The translations under genes were made by a program, and so were the position numbers. This document shows positions 1 through 35,754 of a stretch of DNA of 64,000 bases, one piece after another (the stretch's first letter is position 1; each line of letters starts with the position of its first letter). Origin of the DNA: Saccharomycopsis phalli (lineage: Eukaryota; Ascomycota; Saccharomycetes; Ascoideales; Saccharomycopsidaceae). The DNA lies in the NCBI GenBank assembly GCA_020342235.1, contig CP073216.1, forward strand, positions 1-64,000, in the 5' to 3' direction. The notes under the pieces are model-generated. The model saw only the letters and a list, made by a program, of their open reading frames with translations. It made no database searches and was not told where the DNA came from.

Positions 1-365
1 CCGCACATCCGACATCCGCACATCCGCACATCCGCACATCCGCACATCCGCACATCCGCACATCCGCACATCCGCACATCCGCACATCCGCACATCCGCA
101 CATCCGCACATCCGCACATCCGCACATCCGCACATCCGCACATCCGCACATCCGCACATCCACACATCCGCACATCCGCACATCCGCACATCCGCACATC
201 CGCACATCCGCACATCCGCACATCCGCACATCCGCACATCCGCACATCCGCACATCCACACATCCGCACATCCCCACATCCCCACATCCCCACATCCCCA
301 CATCCCCACATCCCACATCCCCACATCCCCACATCCCCACATCCCACATCCCACATCCCCACATT
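1..365. repeat. 8-bp tandem array, candidate telomeric repeat
   Basis: The + strand is a long run of CCGCACAT units (period 8), G-strand GGATGTGC. From about 260 it drifts to CCCCACAT-type units and irregular 7-8 bp spacers. The C-rich strand reads 5' to 3' inward, as at a left chromosome end. The G strand contains CGGATGT, the core shared by Candida-type telomere repeats and Rap1 sites. Telomere identity is inferred; an internal minisatellite is the alternative. Confidence 0.7.
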
Positions 366-430
366 ACATCACGTCATCTCATGCCACATCATGCTCTCTC
401 ACGCCATCTCATGTTACCTATTTTTATCTC

Positions 431-558
431 ATCACATGACACGTTTCTCACATGACTTTGATATATCACGTGGTGTCAACACGTCACATGTCAACTATAT
501 CACATGCCAATTTAATCACGTGATAATGTTATGTCATTTGACTTAATCTCATCACATG
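431..558 (+). repeat. Periodic cluster of RTCACRTG sites
   Basis: Seven TCACRTG motifs, all in the same orientation, begin at 431, 447, 465, 483, 499, 515 and 551. Six of them are full RTCACRTG (the 447 copy has C in first place). Spacing is 16, 18, 18, 16, 16 and 36 bp, so it looks like a degenerate 16-18 bp minisatellite in which only the site is kept. RTCACRTG is the Cbf1/CDEI consensus. The array sits directly inside the telomere-like repeat. A role in subtelomeric chromatin is inferred. Confidence 0.65.
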
Positions 559-2962: not shown

Positions 2963-3934
2963 ATGGTCTTTACATTTATCTTCTTTCATCTTCTCCATCT
3001 AACTTTGGCTCGAATTATCACTCAGCAAGATGCTCCCAACTATTTGGCCCGCATCTCAAGTACTCAACAATTTCTTCCCAAAAAAGGCCCATACACCTAT
3101 CAATACCAGTCTCAAGCTGGCCAAGGTGTAGCTATCTACGTCATCGACTCGGTTCCACTAGATTCAATGTCTAGCTACAAAGATCTTTTTATCAATCAAC
3201 CCCAAATCATTTATAAGAATTCATATGATACTTCTCGTCTAGCTCTTTCAAAGTCTGATCATGCCATGAATGTTGCCCTTATTGCTGCCGGAAAAAATTC
3301 AGGCGTTGCTCCAAATGCTCAAGTTTTTATTATTCCCGTAAAATTCGATCATACCTTTACAATCCATGATGTTTCAGATGGAATTTTACATGCACTTCAG
3401 GATTACCACACAAATCGTCGACAGTCACATCCAAAGGGTGTTGTTATCAATATCAGTATCGGGTGCAATCTTAACTCAGTCAGCCGCTCTCAAGCATTTC
3501 TGGATTCTTTAGATGAAATACTTGAAAATATTCCAAATGTTCATGTTGTGGTTTCTGCAGGTAACTCAAATGAAGATGCATGTAAATATTCATTCACCAG
3601 TTCAAAATACGCAATCACCGTTGGTTCATCCAATTTTTATGGTGCTGAGTCTCAATTTTCTAACTGGGGAAAGTGTGTTGATTTCTTCGCCATGGGAGAA
3701 GATATTATATTGAAAGATGACCCACTCAAAGGCACCTCATATGCCACTGCGCAAGTATCAGGCCTCGTGGCTTACTTTATTTCAGTTAATCCAAATTTGC
3801 AAAGCTCCTATAATAATGGTGATTACAGTTCGAAACAGATGAAAACATTGCTCGAAGAAAATGCCAACAAGCATTCTATTACTCTGTTTAAAGGTACCTT
3901 TGCTCCATTAATTGGAAATGATATTAAGCTTTAA
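2963..3934 (+). CDS. Secreted subtilisin-like serine protease without propeptide
   Basis: A 323-aa S8 peptidase of the proteinase K/cerevisin type. A hydrophobic leader (residues 2-16, VFTFIFFHLLHLTLA) leads almost directly into the catalytic domain (LARIS at 28-32). Catalytic residues are present: Asp62 in VIDS, His100 in SDHAMNVA, oxyanion Asn201 in SAGNS, and Ser259 in GTSYATAQ. The flanking residues around Asp and His are unusual (DSV for DTG, HAMN for HGTH). Fungal S8 enzymes normally carry an I9 chaperone propeptide, which is absent here although the relative at 10186-11127 has one. The gene sits between a LINE and LTR debris. It looks intact but could be an orphaned catalytic module of low activity. 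Substrate is unknown; secretion is inferred from the leader. Confidence 0.8.
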   Translation: MVFTFIFFHLLHLTLARIITQQDAPNYLARISSTQQFLPKKGPYTYQYQSQAGQGVAIYVIDSVPLDSMSSYKDLFINQPQIIYKNSYDTSRLALSKSDHAMNVALIAAGKNSGVAPNAQVFIIPVKFDHTFTIHDVSDGILHALQDYHTNRRQSHPKGVVINISIGCNLNSVSRSQAFLDSLDEILENIPNVHVVVSAGNSNEDACKYSFTSSKYAITVGSSNFYGAESQFSNWGKCVDFFAMGEDIILKDDPLKGTSYATAQVSGLVAYFISVNPNLQSSYNNGDYSSKQMKTLLEENANKHSITLFKGTFAPLIGNDIKL

Positions 3935-5522: not shown

Positions 5523-7160
5523 ATGACTGAAAAAAGCCCAGGCTCGCCGCGGCGGCCAATCCAGGAACCATGGTCAGATGCAACTGCATCGCACCAATCC
5601 CCTAACTTTGCCCCTGAGAGCAGCCCCGCTGCCCAACACGGGACAGAGTCTCCCTCACTGACATCCAATTCCGTCTGGCCGACATCCCATTTACCGCTGT
5701 CGTTTGAGAAAGCGCTCGCACGGAGAATCCCTCTCCCTCCACTTACCGAAGACATCCCAGAGTTCATCCGCCCATGGATTATTACCACCAACAGCATCAT
5801 GCAAGAGCTCTGCTCTGAACAACCAACACTATCTTGGCAAAAATTAACCGCAGAGCACATCAACCACCTCGCCAAAGATGTACACGGATGCAAACAGATC
5901 TGCAGCACTCTAGTGAACGAGATCCGGGAGCTAAAGGCTGAACTCAGATCCACCAAAAGCACCAGCTACTCTCAAGCAGCCGCCCGGGGCATGAGAAGCA
6001 ATCCACCGTCAACTCGCCCAACCCATAGGGGGCGCCCTAATTCACCTTACCGTATTGACGGAAGGGAGTTGTACGCTCAAGGGAAACTCTTCTATATTCA
6101 GAACCCAAATCCAAACCCATCTTGTCAAGCTGAAAGGGACCAACAAGTCAAGCAAGTCAACACCTTTCGCGAACAGATCCCACAGGCTACCCGCGTCACT
6201 CTCACACGCTCCAAACAGATCAGAATTCACGTCTCCGAGCCATTGAGCATGGAGGCAAAGAATACTGTTCTTTCCATTTTTGAATCACCGGGATTTTTCG
6301 ACCCGAGCCCTTGGGCCACGCGCGTCGTGGGGAACATCCCCCTCACAGTCTCACCAGCCGCCCTTGAAGCTTTCTTCATAAAGGAAGCCAAAAAAGCAGA
6401 ATGGGATGATCCACTCTTCTCCGCCCCTCCACGAGCTCTCATCAAACGAGACGTCCACATTGACTGGGACAACATCTCAGAAGATAACGAAAAAGCTTAC
6501 TGTGCCAAGCTCTTCTTTCCAAATGAAGACACTGCTACCTTCTTCACCAAGCAAAGTTTCTACCTTAACGGATTTATACCCATCCCAGTGTTCGCCACGA
6601 GAGAGCGGTCTAATCCAAGAAAACGGCAACACATGAGCCCGCCAAATGAACCAATCACAAGCCAACATAGCGGGAGAGTCACACGCAGTCAGTCTCAAAT
6701 GAGAAGTCCACCACTGGAGGCCCAGCCTCAAGCCACCACCCCACCATCAGCTACTCCAGATAGCGAGAAGGTACCTGAAACCCAAGTCAAGGACATCACC
6801 CCTGAGGACGACTCCTTGACCCACCAAGACAATGTCGACAATGAATCCGAGGACATGGACCCGGACTATGTCCCACAAGATGACCAGGAGAGAGACGACA
6901 CATACCTGGACGACAACATGGATGAAGCATCAGAGCTCCAGTCAGGCTCAGAAGAGGAGCAGGAAGAGGAGCCCTCTCAGGAAAATGACGAAGACTCGAC
7001 TCCATCAACAAACGAAGCCACTGCCAGCCGGAAAGCAATCAAGGCAGAAAGAATTGCAAAAGAGATTGAGAGTAAAGCCCGGAAACTCCGTCCCAGAATA
7101 ACTCTAGCCAAAACCTACCAGAGTGGAGCATCCAAGTCTGGTCGCCGGCAATTAAAATGA
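5523..7160 (+). CDS. LINE ORF1 protein
   Basis: A 545-aa protein from the ATG at 5523. The open frame extends upstream to a GTG at 5421 inside the tRNA-like segment, which is unlikely to start it. The N-terminal 100 residues are Pro/Ser/Thr-rich and the middle is mixed. A region around FDPSPWATRVVGNIPLTV to PIPVFATRERS may be an RNA-binding fold of RRM type. The C-terminal 170 residues are strongly acidic (runs of D and E) and end in a basic tail. I see no CCHC knuckle. ORF1 proteins of this LINE group bind element RNA; that role is inferred. The stop overlaps the ORF2 start (ATGA at 7157-7160), suggesting termination-reinitiation. Confidence 0.8.
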   Translation: MTEKSPGSPRRPIQEPWSDATASHQSPNFAPESSPAAQHGTESPSLTSNSVWPTSHLPLSFEKALARRIPLPPLTEDIPEFIRPWIITTNSIMQELCSEQPTLSWQKLTAEHINHLAKDVHGCKQICSTLVNEIRELKAELRSTKSTSYSQAAARGMRSNPPSTRPTHRGRPNSPYRIDGRELYAQGKLFYIQNPNPNPSCQAERDQQVKQVNTFREQIPQATRVTLTRSKQIRIHVSEPLSMEAKNTVLSIFESPGFFDPSPWATRVVGNIPLTVSPAALEAFFIKEAKKAEWDDPLFSAPPRALIKRDVHIDWDNISEDNEKAYCAKLFFPNEDTATFFTKQSFYLNGFIPIPVFATRERSNPRKRQHMSPPNEPITSQHSGRVTRSQSQMRSPPLEAQPQATTPPSATPDSEKVPETQVKDITPEDDSLTHQDNVDNESEDMDPDYVPQDDQERDDTYLDDNMDEASELQSGSEEEQEEEPSQENDEDSTPSTNEATASRKAIKAERIAKEIESKARKLRPRITLAKTYQSGASKSGRRQLK

Positions 7161-9567
7161 AGATATTAGTTATCTCCATTAACATACAAAAGAAACTATC
7201 AATCCTCGAAGCAACACTTAATCACTACAAAAATTCAAAGGCCATTATCATGGTTCAAGAGCCTCCATACCGTCATGGTGCATGGGGCCTCACAAACCTA
7301 GGACAAGCCTTTACTATGTTCGACGTCCCCGAATCCCAATCATCATCCACAGCAAACGAGGCGCTTACGGAGTCGGCTCCAACTGGAGCACCCCCTGTCC
7401 GCCCCAGAGTTGTAACCTATGTCAGCAACCACATCATCAAATCAACATCACCAAAGTTCCGGATTGACCACATTGATACACTACGGGGAGGAGATATAAT
7501 AGGTATCAAGATCACATCCAGACGACTCTCCATCGATCTCATCAACATCTACAACGCCCCGGCAACATCCGCGGCTCACCTCCTATCAGAGTCCCTTGAG
7601 ACTCTCCAGCATCACCTAGTGTCCTGTGGCGGCTGCTTTAAAGGGGTCATCATGGGCGACCTAAATGCCTCACACCCATCTTTTACCTCCCGGATCATAC
7701 CGGGCCAACGTGCTACATCTGACACTGCTGCTATTGACGCCATCATTGAGCTCGGAGATCTCTCCTGCCTTAATGAGTATGATAAACCTACACATCAAAG
7801 AGGTAACACGTTAGACGTCATTTTTGCAAGTCCCTCACTATCTCGGAAGGTAAGTTCCCTGACGAAACTTATGCAGTTTGGATCCGATCATTATGGCCTT
7901 AGGGTCAATATAAAAACTTCGGGCACTAGGGGCCCAGGCCCCTTCCTACTGCTCCCTAATTACTCCAAAACCGACTGGCTGAAAGTACTCGAAGAGCTAG
8001 ACCGCAAAGGGCCGAAGCTTCAACTCCGGTCCCCCCAGGCTCTCAACAAGGTCACCAACTCGTTCACAAAACGAATCCAGAAGCTTATAGCCGACCACAC
8101 GCCAAGGAAAAAAGTTAGTTATTTGTCAAAGAGATGGTTCACTCCAGAGGTGAAAGCTGCATTTGACAGAATGAGGAAAATGGCAATGAATGACCCACAG
8201 AGGCGGAACGCCCTAGAGGAATTCACCAAGATTCTTGGAAAAGCAAAGGCGGATTGCTGGAACTCGTTTCTTGAATCCTTGGACTCCTCTACCATTTGGA
8301 CCGCGTTCAAATACTCCACCCCCCGCATCACCCACAAGATGTCCAAGCTGCATAACGAACAAACTCAGCTCTTTAGTGAAACCTTCTACCCACAGATCTC
8401 TGTAGGGGAAGAACTCTCACGGAACACGTTCACACTACACGAAGTCCCGTCTGACACTATCAACCTGATTACAAAAGAGGAGATATACAAGTCCTTTCGT
8501 TACTTAAAGCTAAAAAAGGCCCCTGGGCCCGACCAAATATCAGTGGGACAGATTCGGGAACTATGGAAAGGAAACACATTTCCGAACCAAATGGAAGCTA
8601 TTCTCAATGCGTGCCTAATGCTAGGCATCTGCCCAGACCAGTGAAAGGAAAGCATCACAGTGGTAATCCCCAAGCCGGGAAAACCAGACTATAACGTGGC
8701 AAAGGCGTACAGGCCAATTAGTCTCTTGAACATAATGGGAAAAATCCACGAATCAATCATGACTCAGCGCCTTGCAGCAACAATCAAGCTACCAAATGGA
8801 CAATTTGGGGGCAGAGCAGGGTACTGCGCTACAGACGCGGTCATGTCACTAGTCAACGAAGTGTCACGGTACAAACAAGTTCAAAAAGTCAGAGAACATC
8901 GTGTGTTAACAGCAGGAATCCGCACCTTACCATCCCAACACCGCCACTCTGGGGCAGTATTGGTGGACATCGAAGGTGCCTTTAACAACATGAATCACCC
9001 CATACTCCTAGCCAAAATGAAACAAGTAGGAGCTCCTCCTGAAATAATCAACTGGACCAGCAGCTTCCTAACTAACCGGAAGACAAAGCTCCGAATCAAT
9101 AATGAACTCACGGAATCGTGGATTCCAGTAACGTTCGGAGTGCCGCAAGGCTCACCCATCTCGCCCATCCTTTTCATGATCTACACACACGACCTCTACA
9201 AGCGACTCACGGACAATGGAGTACAAGTAATAGGATTCATTGATGACATTACTATCTTCAAGCATGGCAAACAGAAGACGATCCAGAAGGCCCTCTCGGA
9301 GAGCCTACGGATCTGCCACCAATGGGCACGGGAAAACTACACTAGTTTCGACTATGGCAAAAAGCTACAATACATTCGCTTCCATCCCAACACCACCGGC
9401 TCGGTCCTACGCCTTCCAAATGGACAGACGAAAGACGAATCGGAGGTGGTCAAACTATTGGGTATCACTCTTGACAAACGACTACGATTCACAGAACACA
9501 TCAAGTCTACGATTACCCGCGCCAAAAAAGTGACAGAGCGTATTAAAACACTCAGTCGCGTTACACA
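7157..9567 (+). pseudogene. LINE ORF2: endonuclease plus reverse transcriptase, one in-frame stop, 3' truncated
   Basis: The N-terminal 250 residues form an APE-type endonuclease: MVQEPP (catalytic Glu), INIYNAP, IMGDLNASH and GSDHYGL. The RT follows: KKAPGPDQIS, then VVIPKPGKP, GRAGYCATDAV, motif A VDIEGAFNNMNH, motif B GVPQGSPISPIL and motif C GFIDDITIF. A TGA at 8642-8644 interrupts CPDQ/KES, where LINEs of this group usually have Trp (TGG). The same frame resumes at once. The frame ends in LTR sequence after LSRVTH, so the end of the RT and the zinc knuckle are gone. Confidence 0.88.
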
Positions 9568-33215: not shown

Positions 33216-33300
33216 GCTGGTCCCGTGCTTCTCACTCCCGGCTTTTATACCAGGCCGGGTAATCCTGGTATATCGTGGGTGAGTGGCCGCACCACGGACC

Positions 33301-35754
33301 ATGAGTCTTGAGTTGGATCTTCAACGGATAGCAGTGCAATTCGCCCAGGTGGCGACCGAGGAGCAGGCAGTGCAGTTGTTGGCAGAGCTTCTGGCGCGTG
33401 ACCGTGACACCGACTCGCAGTTGGACGAGCTTGTCAACCAGTTGAACATTGACAGCGAGCAAAACACAATCGGCTTGGATTTGGCGCGCACCGAGCTTCT
33501 CACGTCGTTGTCGACGCTGACGTCGTTGAAGAAGGTGTTGCTGGAAAGCTCCCACTTGGCCAAGAAGCTCACCTACAAAGTCCGCCTTTTGGACTACGAA
33601 CGGTCGCGGGTTGCCAACACCAAGGTGTTTGTGCAGAACATCATTGATCTCCGCAAGCACATTCTAATCATCAGCCAGTCCATCGAGCAAAAGAACTGGG
33701 ACAGAGTCTCTGCGTCAATTGCGTTTATCTTGCAGGAGATCCCACACTCCATCCTCACCTCCAGCCAGTATGCCGACATCATGATTCCCAGCGCAGAGTT
33801 GCCCGACCGTCCAGACACATTGCTCCGCCGCTGGACCAGCGAATTGAAACAATTGTACGTCGACCAGTTCAACCGAGCCGTCAAATCACGTGACCTCGTC
33901 GGCTTGACCAGTTTCTTCTCCTACTTCCCGATGATCGGCGAGCTGGCGACTGGCATCAACTGTTACTCCAGCTTCATCAACAACATCATTTCCGATCAAT
34001 CGCGCAGTCTCCTTATCCGCGCTCCAAAGGACAAGTTGAACTTTTACTCCGCAGCCACCATGAAGTTGTTTGAAATCGTGTCCAAGATCGTCAACCAGCA
34101 CAGCACAATCATCGTCAAGTACTACGGTAAGGAGGCAATGAGCACTGTCATCGACAAGATTCAGCGCGAGGTCGATTCCCAGGCCGGTTTGATCGCTGAT
34201 ACCTTCTGGGACGTTCGCAACTTTGACAAAATCGTCCATGATATTGACGGATATGGCTTCACCTACTTGAACGAGCTACTGTCGGCTCGGAGCCAGGATG
34301 AAGACGCACCGGGCCATTTCGACAACGACATTGAAGAATTGGTCTCGGTGGTCGATATCGGAGACTACATCAACGAGTTGACCATGCTCATGAACAGGTG
34401 GGTCTTGTACTGCGAATACATTGCAGTCAAGTGGAAAGAATACTCGGGAGACATCTCACGAGACGGCAAGTTGCTACTTGTCAAGCCGTTGCTCGAAAGC
34501 AGTTTCCTTGCCAAGATCCAGACCAAGCTTGTGCCGTGCTACGAAACATTGACAGTATACTACTTGAAAAAGTCGCTTGAAAAGACCTTCAAACTAGAGG
34601 AATTGCCCGACCTCACCCCGATCATCCAGCTGTTCTTGGTCACTGCAAAAACCGACGAGAAAATCCTGGAAGACTGCCCAGTCAGCTCCGTGGTCGAAGA
34701 CTTCATTTTAATCGTCAACAACATTCTCACCAACGGCATTGAAGCCGGTCAGCCGGTCTTGTTGAAGAACATCTTCACTGAGGTCAAACACGTATTGGCA
34801 AACTACTTCTACAAGATTTTGGCCCTGAAATTGAAGGAGCACCAGCCTCGACAGGGCACAAACTTGCTCAACATCAACGAAAAGACCAACCCAACCACCA
34901 TCGATAAGTCAAACGACCCAAACAGAAACGTCATCACCGGAAATCTTAGCAGTCTTCGAAACAGCAGCGACATGGAAAGATCCTCCACCCCGCCAAATGT
35001 GCTATCCAACATGTTGCTCAAAGGCGCAAGCGCATTTAATTCGTTGGGTTTGAACGACGAGTTCAAGCTCACTAATTATATTATATACTTCAACTCTACC
35101 TGCGTCTTTAGAGAATACTTCTTGAAAATGTTGGACCGTTTGGTATTGGACGAAGCTTCGTTGTTGGACAAGAAGTTCCAATTTGGAAGCGACGCAGCCC
35201 GTCTCAGACAATTGGCCACGATTAACCTCGGCGATTATGTCACAAAATTAAACGAGACCTTGATCAAGGAGAATGCCACCATATTTTTTGCCTTGATTTT
35301 CCAAAATAGACTCAAGAGCATCGTGAACGACTTTTTTTCCTACACCAACAGCTATTTGATCGAGTCAAACTCGATAAACAACGGCGCGGAAATCAAAAAG
35401 TTTATCAAGAACTGGTCGATTCTCATCAAGCCATACCACAAAATCCTTGCCAAGGATATTTTCAGCCATATCATCAGGTTGGTAACCAAGATGATCTCTG
35501 AAATGGTTGAAAAGAAGGTTTGGTTATTGAGTAAAAAAATCAATCTCTTGGGGGTGTTGAAGCTCGAAAAGGATGTGAGCCACATTATCAACGAGACCAC
35601 AAAGTATAATTATAGTTTGCGTGAGCACTTTATTAGAGTCACACAGTTGATTATGATTATGGGATTTGACCACGAGGAAGACGAGGCGGAAATTGACTGG
35701 ATATTGACAATGAACGAGCGCAAAAGGGCACGGCAGTTGAGAATTGATAAATAA
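33301..35754 (+). CDS. COG4: Conserved oligomeric Golgi complex subunit 4
   Basis: An 817-aa protein from ATG 33301. The N-terminal 130 residues are heptad-rich (LLTSLSTLTSLKKVLLESSHLAKKL), as in COG and exocyst tethers. Family-typical blocks follow: RAVKSRDLVGLTSFFSYFPMIG, KLFEIVSKIVNQHSTIIVKYYG, and the C-terminal EIDWILTMNERKRARQLRID, close to the conserved end of Cog4. COG tethers intra-Golgi vesicles and binds Sly1/Sed5 through Cog4. Its function supports the mannosyltransferases encoded near the window end. Confidence 0.85.
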   Translation: MSLELDLQRIAVQFAQVATEEQAVQLLAELLARDRDTDSQLDELVNQLNIDSEQNTIGLDLARTELLTSLSTLTSLKKVLLESSHLAKKLTYKVRLLDYERSRVANTKVFVQNIIDLRKHILIISQSIEQKNWDRVSASIAFILQEIPHSILTSSQYADIMIPSAELPDRPDTLLRRWTSELKQLYVDQFNRAVKSRDLVGLTSFFSYFPMIGELATGINCYSSFINNIISDQSRSLLIRAPKDKLNFYSAATMKLFEIVSKIVNQHSTIIVKYYGKEAMSTVIDKIQREVDSQAGLIADTFWDVRNFDKIVHDIDGYGFTYLNELLSARSQDEDAPGHFDNDIEELVSVVDIGDYINELTMLMNRWVLYCEYIAVKWKEYSGDISRDGKLLLVKPLLESSFLAKIQTKLVPCYETLTVYYLKKSLEKTFKLEELPDLTPIIQLFLVTAKTDEKILEDCPVSSVVEDFILIVNNILTNGIEAGQPVLLKNIFTEVKHVLANYFYKILALKLKEHQPRQGTNLLNINEKTNPTTIDKSNDPNRNVITGNLSSLRNSSDMERSSTPPNVLSNMLLKGASAFNSLGLNDEFKLTNYIIYFNSTCVFREYFLKMLDRLVLDEASLLDKKFQFGSDAARLRQLATINLGDYVTKLNETLIKENATIFFALIFQNRLKSIVNDFFSYTNSYLIESNSINNGAEIKKFIKNWSILIKPYHKILAKDIFSHIIRLVTKMISEMVEKKVWLLSKKINLLGVLKLEKDVSHIINETTKYNYSLREHFIRVTQLIMIMGFDHEEDEAEIDWILTMNERKRARQLRIDK

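Follow-up and report, generated by a model that had tools for sequence, protein, structure and literature searches.

A regularly spaced array of Cbf1/CDEI-type sites beside telomeres of Saccharomycopsis phalli, a candidate subtelomeric protein-binding platform

Subtelomeric platforms of DNA-binding factors are best known from Saccharomyces cerevisiae, where Reb1 and Tbf1 are the factors concerned. According to the passages of PMC9531808 that deal with them, there are five to eight Reb1 consensus sites in the subtelomeric repeats (STRs) of this yeast, at which Reb1 destabilises a nucleosome and represses TERRA, and a role in limiting silencing has been proposed for both Reb1 and Tbf1; the two proteins reportedly occupy a nucleosome-free stretch adjoining the telomere (cited in PMC12408736, in the part of that text bearing on it). 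Elements of other kinds have been described at the same place in other yeasts. These include TelKO of Naumovozyma castellii, which excerpts of PMC12408736 present as a short, TG-rich element inside the telomere that is absent at 7 of 18 ends, is exchanged between ends and binds Rap1 in vitro, and the Rap1A site of Hansenula polymorpha, located no more than 100 bp from the first telomeric repeat at 6 or more of 14 ends (PMC6510891, in an excerpt). Multiple PmlI sites are indicated in the subtelomeres of Yarrowia, where a figure legend, the part of PMC6746865 that concerns us here, treats them as restriction sites only.

The array described here, at the left end of contig C5 (C5L) and at other chromosome ends of S. 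phalli, shares with the X-element STR of S. cerevisiae, as outlined in the excerpted source, the general form of a group of general-regulatory-factor sites just inside the telomere that varies between ends, as well as its placement between the telomere repeat and the first gene (at 8 of the 12 telomeric ends). It differs from the STR in that the sites are of Cbf1/CDEI type and follow each other at a regular step of 16-18 bp, with no excess of Reb1- or Tbf1-like words. The position directly inside the telomere, the presence at only part of the ends and the exchange between ends are features in common with TelKO, as far as the excerpts on that element go, whereas the array has spacers unlike the telomere repeat and its sites are E-boxes. 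H. polymorpha has one 13-bp Rap1 site, as excerpted, in contrast to an array of bHLH sites here. In site type and in being an 8-bp element, the sites correspond to CDEI of the S. cerevisiae point centromeres; however, in the relevant part of PMC13079627 a single CDEI stands beside CDEII and CDEIII, whereas 4-11 sites stand in a row here. The telomere repeat of Yarrowia (TTAGTCAGGG) differs from that of S. phalli, and the likeness to its subtelomeres rests on a figure legend. Since PmlI cuts CACGTG, the Yarrowia layout may be related, and those subtelomeres may be a precedent. Full-text searches, in which few subscription papers were covered, found no published description of a Cbf1-type array beside telomeres. 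The statement in the first-pass annotation that no subtelomeric element of this form had been described thus stands in so far as none was found in the literature, but has to be tempered by the close functional analogues that have been published.

The genome comprises 14,148,124 bases in 8 contigs, and the window, that is, the whole stretch of 64,000 nucleotides analysed, corresponds to positions 1-64000 of C5. Positions 1-364 consist of an 8-bp unit in tandem, (CCGCACAT)n with CCCCACAT and CCACACAT variants on the C-rich strand and ATGTGCGG on the G strand. Because this repeat terminates 12 of the 16 contig ends, what had been called a telomere-like repeat can be identified as the telomere, with which the window starts. 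Among the four contig ends without the repeat, C2L is N, C8R terminates in small-subunit rRNA, and no repeat was seen at C6L or C7L. Both in the window (1-364) and at other ends, CCGCACAT gives way to CCCCACAT or CCACACAT towards the interior, which may be the trace of an older telomerase template. Matches to Rap1_C, to the TRF family and to the telomerase RNA-binding domain were found in the genome; therefore, the usual telomere proteins are also present. Positions 365-418 (plus strand) carry a degenerate short repeat of 10 bp, recognised by eye as CCATCTCATG-like ("B type"). Repeats of this appearance were likewise seen by eye beside the telomere at C5R, C1L, C1R, C3R and C4L, and at C5L and C5R they sit between the telomere and the array. 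On the inner side of the array, a retroelement piece at 911-2569 on the minus strand, in which the open frame codes for a reverse-transcriptase domain (RVT_1), precedes the first peptidase gene, a subtilase (Peptidase_S8) gene at 2963-3934 on the plus strand that is directed away from the telomere. An endonuclease frame at 7157-8644 (plus strand) is also a retroelement piece. Further into the window, COG4 (33283-35754) has 76% identity to one protein and 52% to that of Saccharomycopsis crataegensis, the nearest from a named species (7,996 candidates scored); two of its eight CTG codons are informative and relatives have mostly serine at both, which suggests that CTG is read as serine in this yeast.

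The C5L array is formed by TCACRTG matches on the plus strand starting at 432, 448, 466, 484, 500, 516 and 552, with steps of 16, 18, 18, 16, 16 and 36 bp. Together with the preceding base, the sites read ATCACATG at 431-438, 499-506 and 551-558 (sites 1, 5 and 7), ATCACGTG at 465-472 and 515-522 (sites 3 and 6), GTCACATG at 483-490 (site 4) and CTCACATG at 447-454 (site 2), all on the plus strand. A or G precedes six of the seven; site 2 lacks the preceding purine, having C before the match at 448. Site 6 holds the palindromic TCACGTGA and is readable on the minus strand too, and this overlap at 517-523 is the sole minus-strand match within the array stretch. Inside the doubled step, TCATTTG at 534-540 (plus strand) is in phase and possibly a decayed site. 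The match positions confirm the original description of seven same-strand TCACRTG sites, six of them RTCACRTG, at steps of 16-18 bp with one step doubled. Over both strands of the 64-kb window, 33 TCACRTG matches were counted, whereas 100 shuffles gave 20.17 (sd 4.44). From these shuffles, the chance expectation for 128 bp of one strand is about 0.02, and the figure of 0.06 first quoted was thus of the right order. Shuffling positions 365-620 themselves is a strict control because the array's own composition is retained; in 20,000 dinucleotide shuffles the maximum was 5 sites (reached in 3 shuffles), compared with the 7 observed.

A search of the contig ends for similar arrays, as had been proposed, found them at 8 of the 12 telomeric ends, in each case in the outermost 700 bp of the contig. 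The number of sites was 11 at C2R and C3L, 10 at C7R, 8 at C8L, 7 at C5L and C6R, 5 at C4R and 4 at C5R, a total of 63. All are TCACRTG by selection, with TCACATG in 52 and the CACGTG variant in 11, and in these first 700 bp all 63 have the same orientation relative to the telomere, palindromic overlaps excepted. The remaining four telomeric ends (C1L, C1R, C3R and C4L) contain no TCACRTG within the first 3 kb, which indicates that the array is not essential in cis. Across the genome, three sites with two successive steps of 15-20 bp gave 41 matches, whereas the reversed pattern gave 3. Contig ends account for 36 of the 41 matches; the other 5 fall at four internal places.

The arrays are not all independent of each other. 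C2R and C3L share 99.8% identity across 2.3 kb, and C7R and C8L 94% across 0.6 kb; such near-identical ends show exchange between chromosome ends. As only about six of the eight arrays are independent, steps were counted in six representatives, where 32 of 38 measured 15-18 bp (16 bp thirteen times, 18 bp fourteen times, 17 bp four times and 15 bp once). The remaining six are approximately double (33, 35 and four of 36 bp), and each contains a related 7-mer in phase, namely CCACGTG, TCACCTG, TCATTTG or, three times, GCGCATG. Five of the 12 telomeric ends share a conserved block, GTGGCGCATG, that keeps the phase of the array and for which the expectation is near zero. The ends concerned are C2R, C3L, C4R, C7R and C8L, with GCGCATG at C6R, and the block may be an element of its own. 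C7R exceeds C8L by two units, a difference of 34 bp; the array therefore changes through gain or loss of units. Immediately after the array at C4R, 467-593 from the end, eleven TCAAATG follow each other at 12-bp steps.

Eleven of the 28 possible array pairs were aligned, with site columns defined in one sequence only and the spacers of the other compared. Two pairs are near-identical and uninformative on the conservation of sites versus spacers. For the nine non-identical pairs, all 18 directed comparisons gave 84-100% identity in the site columns and 43-85% in the spacers, gapped sites being excluded from these percentages; Fisher p values for site versus spacer ranged from 0.0036 to 5e-11 and are optimistic, because columns were treated as independent. 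There is nevertheless turnover of sites: whole sites kept between aligned pairs ranged from 3 of 7 to all, the lowest values being 3/7 (C5L to C5R, and C6R to C4R) and 5/11 (C2R to C6R, and to C4R). The alignment procedure may favour sites over spacers. C5L and C6R have the steps 16, 18, 18, 16 and 16 in common and were compared without an aligner: at an offset of 80, their sites matched at 41 of 42 bases and their spacers at 22 of 49, and neighbouring offsets gave at most 16 of 42 for the sites. The retention of the 8-mer amid diverged spacers, claimed at the outset for C5L, is thus borne out by 18 of 18 directed comparisons and by the aligner-free one, and the suggestion of selection on protein binding is supported by the kept sites, the flanking purine and the presence of a Cbf1-like gene. 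As arrays occur at other ends and spacers are less conserved than sites, neither of the two outcomes named beforehand as contrary to it, namely no similar array at other chromosome ends or equal conservation of the bases between sites, was obtained.

The identity of the binding protein can be approached through the base preceding the site, which played no part in site selection and is therefore an independent test. In the 44 unique contexts, a purine occupied this position 38 times (20 A, 18 G), C five times and T once. The CDEI consensus, RTCACRTG, has a purine before TCACRTG and A or G at the variable inner base, and the preceding purine of the arrays fits Cbf1/CDEI. The bHLH match at C8:788035-788181 was read as a piece of 79 residues, which gave an E value of 1.1e-23 with yeast Cbf1; its basic region, HKEVERRRRENIN, is unchanged, and the helix-loop-helix is followed by the NIEKWTL motif. 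Judged from this piece, the genome is predicted to encode a Cbf1-like bHLH protein. Yeast Cbf1 binds CDEI as a homodimer, according to the relevant part of PMC13079627. Words resembling the sites of Tbf1, Reb1 and Rap1 showed no excess in the 400 bp adjoining the telomere on its inner side at the 12 ends (Tbf1-like, 1 seen versus 0.7 expected; Reb1-like, 1 versus 2.0; Rap1-like, 1 versus 2.2), nor was there an excess of replication-origin (ACS) words near the telomere. It is quite likely that the array sites are bound by a bHLH protein, most probably the Cbf1 orthologue.

A binder of the bHLH class other than Cbf1, such as an Ino2/Ino4-like pair or a Pho4-like or SREBP-like protein, appears unlikely. 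The genome has at least 12 bHLH matches, the asymmetric CACATG could suit a heterodimer, and the inositol element contains CATGTG, the reverse of CACATG; however, the inositol element has T before the site and Pho4 disfavours a 5' T adjoining CACGTG, while T precedes the site in only one of the 44 contexts. In addition, parts of four of the bHLH matches were read, and two have Tyr in the basic region, an SREBP-like trait unlike Cbf1; one is another arginine-type kind. Another role for the sites would be that of upstream activating sites for the telomere-adjacent subtilase genes, which we consider improbable. Eleven of the 12 telomeric ends have subtilase matches within 5 kb that are directed away from the telomere, and the four internal arrays are intergenic, beside ordinary genes (an ABC transporter; a methyltransferase-like and an RRM protein; Gtr1/RagA and a MYST protein; peroxiredoxin and Med17), from which it follows that such sites do occur in promoters. 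The steps of the internal C1 array (17, 18, 38, 18, 17 and 37) indicate that phasing can also arise in a promoter. The near-universal presence of subtilase genes weakens this explanation because it includes array-less ends: all four of these have such a gene at the corresponding position, whereas C7R has an array without a subtilase match there, and in the window the retroelement piece separates the array from the subtilase gene. The predominant variant also differs, internal strand matches in window positions 1001-64000 being TCACGTG in 20 of 25 cases, compared with TCACATG in 52 of 63 telomeric sites. The 46 subtilase matches of the genome, of which 25 lie no more than 25 kb from a contig end, are a subtelomeric peptidase family. 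Close TCACRTG pairs are frequent in the genome (at least 452, versus at least 39 for the reversed pattern), and the 16-18 bp step is not general for them, being found in 14 of the first 100 of the 452 pairs; among these 100, steps of 11, 23 and 32 are commoner and largely belong to dispersed repeats. Such repeats with paired E-boxes were seen at many places on C1 and C2 among the same 100 pairs and are perhaps retroelement promoters.

Tandem organisation beside a telomere could also be that of a neutral satellite, or of a decayed telomere repeat, containing CACAT by chance. CACAT is indeed common to the sites and the telomere repeat, chromosome ends are exchanged, and the array gains or loses units, as the two more units of C7R over C8L (34 bp) indicate. 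Nevertheless, such an origin is very unlikely: the mean step is about 17 and not 16, sites are far better kept than spacers, and the variable inner base is a purine, as it is in CDEI. The likeness of the spacers to the telomere repeat is 0.437, compared with 0.445 in shuffled spacers (0.453 versus 0.443 for the CCCCACAT variant and 0.463 versus 0.464 for the CCACACAT variant), and the decayed telomere repeat was rejected, as spacers are no more telomere-like than shuffled ones (0.437 versus 0.445). It is similarly doubtful, to a high degree, that the sites are seeds for telomere re-addition or inter-end recombination, with a TelKO-like spread between ends as a possible form of it. Telomerase could prime on an eroded site because CATGTG holds ATGTG, the start of the unit ATGTGCGG; moreover, near-identical ends indicate exchange, and at the six ends where telomere and array abut, the last telomeric CACAT (CTCAT at C4R) lies in phase before the first site, at a distance of 16 bp at C2R, C3L, C7R and C8L and of 15 bp at C4R and C6R. 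However, the six ends amount to no more than three independent junctions, distances in phase are not unusual with a repeat of 8 bp, the CACGTG variant (11 of 63) would be a poor primer, and seeding alone leaves the kept T and R positions unexplained. A centromere is disfavoured, as arrays lie beside the telomeres at both ends of C5.

The placement, step, orientation and kept sites of the arrays are observed features. As to what they do, we propose by analogy, with about an even chance of being right, a subtelomeric array of Cbf1 binding sites that would form a Cbf1-coated platform beside the telomere, similar in its working to those of Reb1 and Tbf1. Cbf1 dimers would occupy the sites, packed every 16-18 bp, and would keep nucleosomes off the array stretch. 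The resulting platform would limit telomeric silencing, block or tune transcription running into the telomere, and steady the chromosome end when the telomere is short. The analogy extends over this whole series, from the exclusion of nucleosomes by the dimers to a silencing-limiting, transcription-tuning and end-steadying platform, and the chances for and against it are roughly balanced. A stronger form, in which the array would be a second, sequence-specific end-cap where Cbf1 forms a filament with a step of 17 bp, and where erosion into the array would expose both a bound protective platform and an ATGTG primer for telomerase, seems decidedly unlikely; if true, chromosome ends in this yeast lineage would have a factor of centromeres and promoters among their structural components. 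For the Cbf1-coated platform, a lineage with regularly ordered Cbf1-type sites would demonstrate that what persists is the kind of structure, with one factor exchanged for another. The array would also be a simple, deletable element for asking what subtelomeric platforms do, and Cbf1, familiar from centromeres and promoters, would be linked to chromosome ends as well.
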